From assembly GCF_022809315.2 (NCBI RefSeq), contig NZ_JAKZJU020000001.1:1525001-1589000 (forward strand): a stretch of DNA of 64,000 nt, in the 5' to 3' direction. Under the pieces are notes generated by a model. That model had not been told where the DNA came from. It ran no database searches and worked only from the letters and a program-made list of their open reading frames with translations. The DNA is from Mesosutterella faecium. Its GTDB lineage: Bacteria > Pseudomonadota > Gammaproteobacteria > Burkholderiales > Burkholderiaceae_F. This document shows, piece by piece, positions 38,703-42,960 of the stretch; position 1 is the first letter of the stretch, and each line of letters begins with the position of its first letter. Both the position numbers and the translations under genes were made by a program.

Positions 38703-39056
38703 ATGCTTGCTGAAAACAAGAAGCTTGACGCCAAAATCCAGGAAGCCCGCGAATTGAAGCGGCAGACGGAATCGATCATGAAGCAGATCCGCAAGTCTGC
38801 GATCCGCGAAATCCGTCAGTACATGCAGCGCTATGAAATTACTCTTGAGGATCTGAGCGCCGCCCAGACGCCCAGGGAAAAGGCCGCCTCAGCGGCCTCT
38901 GAAACGAAGAAAGCCAAGAAAAGCTCCATTAAGGCGAAATACAGAAGCGATGACGGGAAGCTCACCTGGACCGGCCGCGGGCTGAAGCCGAAATGGCTCA
39001 CCGAAGAGCTGAAGAAGGGTCGTAAGCTGGAAGAGTTCCTGATCGACAAAAACTAA
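38703..39056 (+). CDS. hns: H-NS family histone-like nucleoid protein
   Basis: A 117-residue nucleoid-structuring protein. The N-terminal half is a coiled-coil oligomerisation segment (LDAKIQEARELKRQTESIMK). A lysine-rich linker (TKKAKKSSIKAKYRS) leads to the C-terminal DNA-binding domain KLTWTGRGLKPKWLTEELKK, close to the betaproteobacterial H-NS core with its TGRGLKPKW loop. It silences AT-rich and foreign DNA. The ATG at 38703 follows AAGAGGATTAAATTA. Its last five bases are the first bases of the 201-bp duplicated target of the downstream transposon, so the gene remains intact. Confidence 0.92.
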   Translation: MLAENKKLDAKIQEARELKRQTESIMKQIRKSAIREIRQYMQRYEITLEDLSAAQTPREKAASAASETKKAKKSSIKAKYRSDDGKLTWTGRGLKPKWLTEELKKGRKLEEFLIDKN

Positions 39057-39252
39057 GATCCAGCGCGTTTCCCGTGATTTGAAAGGCTTCGGCATCCTGC
39101 GGATGAACCGAAGCCTTTATTTTGTCCGCAGAAAGCAGACTGAAATGAGAGGGAAGACCCCATAGGGGTTGAGCCAGCGGAGGCAGGGCGCGGGGAAACA
39201 AAATGAAGCCCGGCGGCCGTCCGGCTCCCTGAGCCTCAGGCGCGGCGGCGCT
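39052..39252 (+). repeat. Left 201-bp direct repeat flanking the IS1634-like element
   Basis: This copy starts ACTAAGATCC (including the hns stop codon) and ends GGCGCGGCGGCGCT. It is repeated at 42659-42859 and no mismatch was found on reading both copies. It abuts the left end of the element and is read as a very long target-site duplication. Confidence 0.88.
39083..39122 (+). terminator. hns terminator (duplicated)
   Basis: AAAGGCTTCGG / CCGAAGCCTTT hairpin around CATCCTGCGGATGAA, followed by ATTTTG. A second copy lies in the right repeat at about 42690-42729. Confidence 0.75.
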
Positions 39253-40624
39253 CCTGACTTTTACCTAAAAAGCCGTCCTCAACAAGGATAAATATCAATA
39301 CAAACATAAATTTGTGAGGCGTTGATGTTTATCAAGCTTTGTCGTAATTATGTAGTTAGATTAGTGTTAATCATGATATGATGTAAATGTCTGACAGGAG
39401 CTTTCCCATGGCCATCTCCGTTTCAATCAAGAAGTTCAAGGGTGTGGAATACGTTTACATTTGCGAAAGCTTCCGAGACCCGCTTACCCGCAAACCCACC
39501 AGCCGTGTGCTGGCCAGCTACGGGAACAAAAAGAAGCTGCTTGAAAAAGACCCGGACGCCATGGAGAAGATCCAGAAACACGCCGAGCAGCTCAGGGCGG
39601 ATTCTTCGCTGTACAGCCAGACGATCCAGGAAACAGTATTGTCGCGGGTCGCTGCGCCAAGCGCGGCAGACCGGCGGCCCGACTGCAGGACCTGTAAGCC
39701 GGCACCCTACAGGCTTCTGTGGGAGCAGCTGGGAATTTCAAATTATTTTCAGAACTATCGTCACAACTACCGGATCGGCTGGGACGTGGACAAGACGATT
39801 TTCTTTTCCGTCGTTTCACGGCTGATCGCCCCTTCCTCGAAGCGCTCCTCCTGGCTCAACAAGGAAAGATTCGTCTTCGACTTCAGCGACCTGCGCCTCG
39901 ATCAGATTTACGACAGCCTGGACATTTTGGCCGACCGCAAGGAAGCTATCGTCAAAAAGCTCAATGACGGCATTGGGCGGCTCTACAAGCGCGACCTGAC
40001 AATTGCGCTTTATGACGTGACCACACTGTATTTCGAGAGTTTTATTGAAGACGGCCTGCGCCGCCGGGGGATGAGCAAGGAGCATCGGACCCAGGAGACC
40101 CAGGTGGTGCTGGGGCTTCTGGTGGATGCAGACGGCATTCCGTTCAATTACGAAATCTTCCCCGGAAACACAGCCGAAGTTCACACCCTGATGGAGGTCG
40201 TGAAGAAATTCAGCCGGGATTACGGAGTCCAGAATGTCACGGTGGTTGCTGACAGCGGGCTGAACCAGTACATCAATCTCGAGGCGCTGCAGGAATCCAA
40301 TTTCAACTTCATTGTGGGCTTCCCTCCCTACATCAAGCTGTCTGTGTCGGACCAGCAGAAATTACTGGACTGCGACGGCTGGCACTGGAGTTCCAGTCCG
40401 GATGACCCTCGGTGGGGAATCAAGGAAATGCCTTTGTCCATTGAGCGCACGGTCGTGGACAAAAGCACCGGCCAGCGAAGACCGGTCAGCCTCAAGGCCA
40501 CCTGCATAGCCACCTATTCCGCCAAACGCTTTGAACACGACAGCCAGGAGCTTGAACTCAAGTGGCAGCGTGCTTCCGACCTTGTGGCAAGAGGCCCCGC
40601 CGCTGTGAAAGCGGCGGGGCGAAG

Positions 40625-40632
40625 CGGCTACA
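40625..40632 (+). repeat. Left 8-bp target duplication of the IS256-family element
   Basis: CGGCTACA, repeated at 41974-41981. Eight or nine bases is normal for the family. Confidence 0.9.
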
Positions 40633-41973
40633 GAGGGTATGGAAATTCTTGTGGGCGCCCCCTTTAGGTTAATCGAAGAAAGGTGCGATCCTGTCTCCGA
40701 ACTCAATGGTTAATTCTCGCATGGCAGTTTTCCAATAAGGTGATGGCCTCACCCATCTCCTCTCCACCTTTCGGATCGCCAGGTAAAGCAGCTTCAGCGC
40801 AGCGGTCTCGCTTGGGAAAGAAGCTCTTGTCTTGACAACCTTTCGCAGGTCCCGGTTCAAGCTTTCAATGGCGTTGGTGGTGTAGATCAACCGCCTGACG
40901 GCGGGTGAGAACTCAAAGAAAGGAATCACGCGATCCCATGCGTCCAGCCAGATTTTTTCGATGTAGGAATATTTTTTCCCAAGTTCCGACTGGGCAAAAT
41001 CGTTCAGCGCCTGACGTGCTTCCTCGGCGTTGACAGCACGGTAAACAGGCTTCAGCGCAGCAACAACCGCCTTGTAATCCTTGTAGTTGACCATTTTGAG
41101 GCTGTTGCGGATCAAATGGACGATGCAGGTCTGCAGCATCGTTTTCGGAAAAGCCGTCTCCAAAGCCTCCTGCATCCCTTTAAGCCCGTCCGTGACGGCG
41201 ATAAGAATGTCGTTGACGCCTCGATTCTTCAGCTCGTTAAAGACTTTAAGCCAGTATTTGGCACTTTCATTTTCGGCCATCCAAAGACCCAGGACATCCT
41301 TCTTTCCATCGGTATCCACGCCCAGGGCGATATGGACTGCCCGGGGAGTGACCACCCCGTTTTCGCCCCTTGTCTTGATCCTGATGGCGTCAAAGAAAAT
41401 CACCGGATAGACAGGGCTGAGAGGACGGTCCTGCCATTTCTGAAGCTCGGGAAGTATGGCGTCGGTCACATCGCTGATGAACTCGGCGCTGGTTTCCATC
41501 CCATATTCGTCGTAAAGATAGCCCTGGATTTCCCGTGTCGTCAGGCCTCGGGCATAAAGGGCCAAAATTTTTTCGTCGAACCCATCCAGCGTCCTTTTGT
41601 GCTTCGGAACAATCCGGGGTGTGAAGCGGCCTTTGCGGTCCCGGGGTACGTCCACATGGATGGTTCCAAGCTTGGGAGACTTCAGGGTTTTGGAGCTGTG
41701 GCCATTGCGCTCATTGTCACCCGGACGTGCCTGGCCCTTTTCATAACCCAGATGATGGGTCATTTCGCCCTCCAGCATTTTCGTCAGCAGCCGCCCCAGC
41801 AGGTGGGCCATGAAATCATCCGCTTCCCCGGAGGATTTGATTTCCCGGCCGGACTTCTTCAGGTCTTCCAGAATCTGTTCCGCGAGTTTGTCAAAAGGAT
41901 CAGGTGTGCGTCTCATATTTAGGCTCTCCAAGAAGCATTATCTCAGAGCGCCCACAAAATTCTTTACACCCTC
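40633..41973 (-). mobile_element. IS256-family insertion sequence, 1341 bp
   Basis: The terminal inverted repeats are about 26 bp: GAGGGTATGGAAATTCTTGT on the left and GAGGGTGTAAAGAATTTTGT on the right read inward, both then continuing GGGCGC. It is flanked by the 8-bp duplication CGGCTACA and carries one intact transposase on the minus strand. It inserted into the IS1634-like transposase gene, so it arrived later. Confidence 0.93.
40669..41916 (-). CDS. IS256-family (mutator-type) transposase
   Basis: A 415-residue DDE transposase. The N-terminal domain includes HHLGYEKGQARPGDNERNGH, typical of IS256 proteins. The catalytic residues are in VIFFDAIRIKTR (first Asp), DILIAVTDGLKGMQEALE (second Asp) and TTNAIESLNRDLRK (Glu), with the family CxxH in QTCIVHLIRNS. 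The frame is open from a TTG at 41931, but ATG 41916 follows TGGAGAGCCTAAAT at a good distance and is used. It appears intact and may be active. Confidence 0.93.
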   Translation of the reverse strand: MRRTPDPFDKLAEQILEDLKKSGREIKSSGEADDFMAHLLGRLLTKMLEGEMTHHLGYEKGQARPGDNERNGHSSKTLKSPKLGTIHVDVPRDRKGRFTPRIVPKHKRTLDGFDEKILALYARGLTTREIQGYLYDEYGMETSAEFISDVTDAILPELQKWQDRPLSPVYPVIFFDAIRIKTRGENGVVTPRAVHIALGVDTDGKKDVLGLWMAENESAKYWLKVFNELKNRGVNDILIAVTDGLKGMQEALETAFPKTMLQTCIVHLIRNSLKMVNYKDYKAVVAALKPVYRAVNAEEARQALNDFAQSELGKKYSYIEKIWLDAWDRVIPFFEFSPAVRRLIYTTNAIESLNRDLRKVVKTRASFPSETAALKLLYLAIRKVERRWVRPSPYWKTAMRELTIEFGDRIAPFFD

Positions 41974-41981
41974 CGGCTACA
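41974..41981 (+). repeat. Right 8-bp target duplication of the IS256-family element
   Basis: Second copy of CGGCTACA, next to the right inverted repeat. Confidence 0.9.
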
Positions 41982-42658
41982 AAGCTTTTATCAAGCCGGG
42001 GACCACTAAAGTTGAGCTGAACTCAGCCCTTTACGACAAACGCCGCAAGTGGTGTGGATACATGGCGCTGCTCACCAATCTTGATTTGCAGAAGCACAAG
42101 CCCGCCGAAATCTACGGCCTTCTGCGGCAGCTCTGGCGCATTGAGAACAACTTTCGGATGCTCAAGACCGATCTTAGGGCCAGACCTGTGTTCGTTTGGA
42201 CAGACCAGCATATCCGTGGGCATTTCGTCCTCAACTACATCGGCCTGGTTCTCCAGCGGCTTTTAATGAAGAAGCTGCGCGAGTCCGGTCTTGATGTTTC
42301 AGGCGCGGAACTCATTCGGGCGCTGGAATCAATGAAGATCAGCAGGCTGAAGGGGCTGAAGAAGGCTCAGTCTTTCCTCTACTGCTGCAGCAATGAGAAC
42401 GCGGAGTCGCTCAGCGTCAGGAATGAAAAAGGAGATCTTCTCTCTTTACAGGAACTTTGCGACAAGATCCTTAACGCCTGCGGGATCGAGCCTCTGAAAG
42501 ACCTTGAGACGGCTGAAAGCATCCGCAGGAAATTCCATTCTCGCCTGCCTATGGCTTAAAAATTTACCTACATCGCTGGATAGTTTTAAAAACAGCCGAA
42601 AGCCTTGAGTACCAGGCTTCCGCACAAGGTTTGATAAAGAAATCACGGAAAAGTCAGG

Positions 42659-42859
42659 ACTAAGATCCAGCGCGTTTCCCGTGATTTGAAAGGCTTCGGC
42701 ATCCTGCGGATGAACCGAAGCCTTTATTTTGTCCGCAGAAAGCAGACTGAAATGAGAGGGAAGACCCCATAGGGGTTGAGCCAGCGGAGGCAGGGCGCGG
42801 GGAAACAAAATGAAGCCCGGCGGCCGTCCGGCTCCCTGAGCCTCAGGCGCGGCGGCGCT
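42659..42859 (+). repeat. Right 201-bp direct repeat flanking the IS1634-like element
   Basis: Second copy of the segment at 39052-39252, from ACTAAGATCC to GGCGGCGCT, next to the right end of the element. It carries a spare hns terminator but no gene. Confidence 0.88.
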
Positions 42860-42960
42860 TTTTTTTTGAGCGAAGAGACCGGGCCCGGCCCTCTGCGGAA
42901 AATGAGCGGGGTCTTAAAGAACCACCGGGAGTGAGCCTGCCCCGGGATTAGTGCGCGGCC

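Follow-up and report, generated by a model that had tools for sequence, protein, structure and literature searches.

In most DDE transposition, target duplications have a near-fixed length because both ends of the element attack in one geometry. In the IS1634 family, IS1634 of Mycoplasma mycoides subsp. mycoides SC and IS1549 of Mycobacterium smegmatis, with repeats of 8-514 bp, are described as exceptions to the family's 5-6 bp, and a 2008 review states that a mechanistic model for them had yet to be proposed (PMC2266710). The passages available on two other members record a fixed 6-bp repeat for ISGka5 (PMC8024623) and repeats of 5-6 bp for ISTth3 (PMC6352166), and the available portions of three further papers are silent on how long the repeats of IS1634 elements are (PMC11004492, PMC8944449, PMC9392320). 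The element analysed here lies in a 64-kb stretch of DNA that we call the window. It is like IS1634 and IS1549 in family and in its long, copy-variable repeats, and it shares family and transposase type with ISGka5 and ISTth3, whose repeats, in contrast, are short and fixed. It differs from IS1634 and IS1549 as an element and in its host, and the repeats of its relatives reach 808 bp, or 1318 bp in one rearranged pair; it may belong to one clade with those two elements, which are represented in the tree by relatives.

The site is organised as follows.

38703..39056, + strand: hns-like gene, left whole, with its stop codon in the left repeat copy (ORF of 117 aa; Pfam Histone_HNS, E 1.9e-15)
39052..39252, + strand: left copy of the 201-bp probable target duplication, 100% identical to 42659-42859
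39253..42658, + strand: IS1634-family element, 3406 bp including a nested element, with inverted ends CCTGACTTTT/AAAAGTCAGG (intact siblings are 2057 bp)
39408..40632, + strand: 5' portion of the split IS1634-family transposase (NCBIfam NF033559, 204.3 bits, ORF 39387-40667; start at 39408 from comparison with the intact sibling L021)
40633..41973, - strand: nested IS256-family element, 1341 bp, transposase on the - strand (NCBIfam IS256, 402.6 bits; 8-bp duplication CGGCTACA at 40625-40632 and 41974-41981)
41974..42559, + strand: 3' portion of the split IS1634-family transposase (NCBIfam NF033559, 105.5 bits, ORF 41810-42559)
42659..42859, + strand: right copy of the 201-bp probable target duplication, 100% identical to the left copy; the segment occurs at two genome places only

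The original prediction held that exact 201-bp direct repeats abut the inverted repeats of an IS1634-like element and that the insertion left hns whole, and sequence comparison bears out each of these points. The two copies are 201 nt each, constitute the sole direct repeat of at least 20 bp in the window, and adjoin without a gap the element ends at 39253 and 42658; both of the segment's occurrences in the whole genome are at this site. The hns-like gene, identified by its Histone_HNS match, is intact because its stop codon (39054-39056) falls in the left copy. Direct reading of the sequence reveals a candidate terminator hairpin at 39082-39118, followed by ATTTTG, whose 15-nt loop exceeds the limits of our terminator scan. 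The scan itself found another terminator-like stem at the extreme end of the segment (42845-42860), with a T-run after the right copy only; the element landed between stem and T-run, so that the right copy alone retains both (42845-42868) and the stem in the left copy (39239-39252) has lost its T-run to the element.

Assignment to the IS1634 family, also predicted, rests on both halves of the transposase scoring above 100 bits, the curated cut-off of the NCBIfam IS1634 model. Both ends of the element read CCTGACTT and match the terminal sequence C-----YT tabulated for the family in the portion of the review available, by whose account the 2057 bp of the intact siblings is slightly above the typical 1500-2000 bp and the 201-bp repeat departs from the usual 5-6 bp, a typical rather than a defining trait (PMC2266710). 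The window element reaches 3406 bp because the 1341-bp IS256-family element interrupts its transposase. When the intact sibling L021 was compared with 15 clade sequences, D203 was invariant and D282 and E463 were conserved at 90% or more; across 40 homologues all three residues were invariant. By their position they are the putative DDE catalytic triad. A search for a solved structure matching the transposase by sequence returned a chance match only (E 0.79). Membership of the IS4 family was considered and rejected: the YREK motif, Y(2)R(3)E(6)K, is incomplete, L021 having E463 and K470 but L at the Y and R positions, and in this the element is unlike Tn5 (IS50) and its family, for which the table in the available part of the review gives repeats of about 8-13 bp (PMC2266710).

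Long, variable target duplication, the behaviour originally proposed for this element, recurs in its siblings at unrelated sites. A protein search of the genome recovered five copies of the window IS; a second IS1634-family IS, whose transposase is 33-34% identical to that of the first, is present in six. Repeats of the window IS measure 201 (window), 184, 249 and 95 bp, and the fifth copy, L023, is rearranged and has none; those of the second IS measure 362, 196, 31, 476, 161 and 84 bp. Thus nine of the ten other IS1634-family copies in the genome are flanked by exact repeats of their own, 31-476 bp long, one being rearranged, and the targets are all different. The host can be dismissed as the cause of the long repeats, because the full-length IS256 copies of the same genome (4/4, leaving aside three degenerate fragments on contig C2) all have repeats of exactly 8 bp. 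The transposases of these four copies are 100% identical, and the IS256-family element was therefore recently active.

The repeat derives from the target rather than from the element, and at the site where this could be examined the target was single before insertion. One copy of the window IS (L022, 2917-3166 and 5223-5472) interrupts an IS21-family istB gene (Pfam IstB_IS21) with a 249-bp repeat, and at least four other istB copies exist in the genome. In four of these an alignment running through flank, target and flank contains the target once, three at 86-87% identity over 827 bp and the fourth over 675 bp, this last copy being itself split upstream of the target by something else. The prediction that an empty hns site should contain one copy of the segment was upheld in part. 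The hns region was matched in five of 41 genomes searched, its own included; in the best relative, G004, both flanks align, the element is absent, and the first 79 bp of the 201-bp segment align once, at 75% identity. This comparison agrees but is partial, because the remaining spacer is too diverged to align. That the repeats predate the element, having arisen by tandem duplication or recombination between copies, and that chance or homologous exchange brought the element in between, is scarcely credible. Exchange between copies does occur, as one reciprocal pair in genome G473 illustrates, but the single istB targets refute older repeats at that site, the 201-bp segment is found nowhere else in the genome, and element ends directly border the repeats of no fewer than 52 different targets, with the same motif at the joints. 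We conclude that the 201-bp repeats are very probably a target-site duplication made by an IS1634-family element, of the long-duplication clade described below, that inserted just downstream of hns.

To follow the predicted behaviour beyond this genome, related transposases were sought elsewhere and their flanking repeats measured. IS1634-family matches were found in 82 of 397 genomes of the same phylum (25 above the curated cut-off), 9 of 67 of the same family, 12 of 370 of the same class and 40 of 392 of the G474 phylum; plasmid records with a match numbered 54, 45 and 31, from which 24 stretches were chosen for variety and not at random. The profile search yielded 229 stretches, distributed over 216 loci, with many insertions sampled more than once. 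Measurement by a single rule gave 121 distinct insertions, 108 of which were placed by tree clusters; repeats longer than about 1.3 kb would escape detection in loci with 1.5-kb flanks. Long repeats do recur, and they are confined to one transposase clade: 52 of its 71 insertions had them on the first pass, as against none of at least 12 bp among the 37 insertions outside it, a result that rejects long repeats as a general IS1634-family trait. Outside the clade, 16 insertions have clear repeats of 4-6 bp (13 of 6 bp and three of 4 bp), 11 have none and 10 are uncallable.

The 19 clade insertions not called long include two reciprocal halves in G473, with repeats of 726 and 1318 bp, one insertion with a 193-bp repeat around a nested element, L081 (the copy also sampled as L024) with a 95-bp repeat, and four loci with exact repeats and unparsed ends (L164, L174, L175 and L199; 171, 118, 30 and 100 bp). 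About 10 of the 71 lack a long repeat (L004/L023, L067, L068, L136, L154, L168, L170, L180, L182 and L192), as do two further clade insertions beyond the 71 (L227 and L232), which have no repeat. Named records with long repeats come from Mycoplasmopsis gallopavonis, Persicobacter, Actinomyces oris, Rhodococcus and Aliarcobacter, and others from genomes of the same family, the same class and the G474 phylum. Carnobacterium (L138/L150) has exact repeats of 175 and 144 bp with unparsed ends and is labelled long in the trees; at L138 (2312-2571) a short extra palindrome occupies the left end, together with two overlapping long repeats. Genome G473, of the same family, carries four IS1634-family lineages in 19 copies (L094-L111), all with long repeats of up to 808 bp; the longest, at L110, spans about three quarters of a DUF362-domain gene (270/358 codons). 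The two G473 copies with exchanged flanks (726/1318 bp) join two contigs of a draft assembly and reflect either cellular exchange or misassembly.

A careful transposase tree (IQ-TREE, 68 rows) groups the long-repeat elements in a clade with support of 100/100, whose 39 rows comprise 27 with long repeats, three with 5 bp, four with no repeat and five uncalled; the 29 rows outside it comprise 17 short, seven without a repeat and five uncalled. Within the clade fall two paired IS1634-family elements of Mycoplasmopsis as well as a group from actinobacteria. Long-duplication behaviour follows the transposase, not the host. A strictly single origin without exceptions is rejected, since the clade holds members with 5-bp repeats, in Microbacterium (two copies), in R. 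jostii and in one R. pyridinivorans element; the distribution of long and short repeats needs four changes on the careful tree and two on an earlier one, and gain and loss are indistinguishable because the root was not inferred.

What the joints have in common was analysed in 52 insertions fitting one end pattern, a different 52 from the first-pass set (L150, L158, L161, L164, L166, L174, L175 and L179 were dropped for want of the pattern). On the strand joined by the 3' end of the element, the first duplicated base is A at 81 of 103 ends, against a background of 27% (binomial p ~1e-27), the second is a purine in 84%, positions 4-5 are A-rich, and T is rare (10%) just outside. Each end was thus joined immediately 5' of an A that purines follow; the two joints lie on opposite strands and enclose the duplicated stretch. 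The preference is alike at left and right ends, which suggests that the half-site is selected by each end separately. Obligatory complementarity between the two outermost bases of the repeat was tried and rejected, the 32 of 44 cases observed being what base preference alone predicts.

Repeat lengths in these 52 anchored insertions range from 31 to 808 bp with a median of 139, to which one rearranged pair adds 1318 bp. A shifted exponential fits their distribution, and so does a lognormal, the parameters of each having been estimated on these very lengths, and no length is favoured; helical phasing at periods of 10-11 bp was not detected (smallest p 0.17). Lengths vary by lineage (Kruskal p 0.025 on 29 values, three added by hand). 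By a rough count, many flanks being short, 11 of the 52 repeats lie wholly inside a frame of at least 150 codons at the rejoined site. Within the clade, the repeat of one R. pyridinivorans element is 5 bp long (TCTGG), and that of a copy with a 96% identical transposase is 93 bp (L148; L233, with 94 bp, is possibly the same insertion). A clade element of R. jostii RHA1 also has a 5-bp repeat. These products indicate that the ordinary joint geometry is still available to the clade. The Microbacterium plasmid element (L226 3935-5452, L147) has altered ends, CCTGGATC, and each of its two copies is flanked by a 5-bp repeat.

How such repeats might arise can be approached only from end products, and repeat length alone does not discriminate between mechanism models. 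With about even confidence, we suggest that the two ends were joined in succession, not simultaneously, with DNA synthesis between the joints. The first element end would join the target at an A-purine site; host synthesis from the freed target 3'-OH would then copy and displace the target strand until the second end joined at another A-purine site, and repeat length would be the distance copied between the two joints. Joining of both ends together would give the usual 5-bp duplication. Two observations weigh against sequential joining: some of the clade insertions with no repeat may represent deletions of target DNA, an outcome also expected when the two joints are chosen freely, and plain polymerase run-on does not by itself predict lineage-dependent lengths. 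In a rather unlikely alternative, a single complex would insert both ends in concert into DNA opened by a replication fork or by a transcription or supercoil bubble, with the host filling the long gaps between distant joints. Such insertion would keep the normal polarity of duplication, place an identical motif at both ends and yield 5-bp products where the target was closed, but very long open stretches would be needed for the repeats of 542-808 bp and for the 1318 bp of the rearranged pair, and the lack of a favoured length also speaks against it. We consider it improbable that one end was inserted into each of two sister chromosomes at offset positions and the product resolved by recombination; variable lengths and independent half-sites would follow, yet deletions would then be expected about as often as duplications, whereas at least 52 of the 71 clade insertions have repeats and about 10 have none.

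Building on sequential joining, we propose still more tentatively, and with slightly less than even confidence, that a single branch of the IS1634 family, with members in at least five phyla, abandoned the fixed two-ended joint: its ends would act in sequence at A-purine sites of their own, the target between them would be copied, length would reflect the run of synthesis, and a 5-bp fallback would be kept. Repeats that are long and variable had been described before, in IS1634 and IS1549. The clade rule, the joint motif with matching half-sites, and one element with 5 and 93 bp were not found in the literature searched, a search with most subscription papers and ISfinder outside its scope, and their absence there argues only weakly for novelty.

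With its clear outgroups, its many natural insertion products, its matching half-sites and its nearly identical transposases that leave 5 or 93 bp, the clade makes the mechanism of long duplication testable in the laboratory. For annotation, repeats of hundreds of base pairs beside an IS of this kind should not be read as gene duplications. For the elements themselves, repeats of this length may permit precise loss by recombination.
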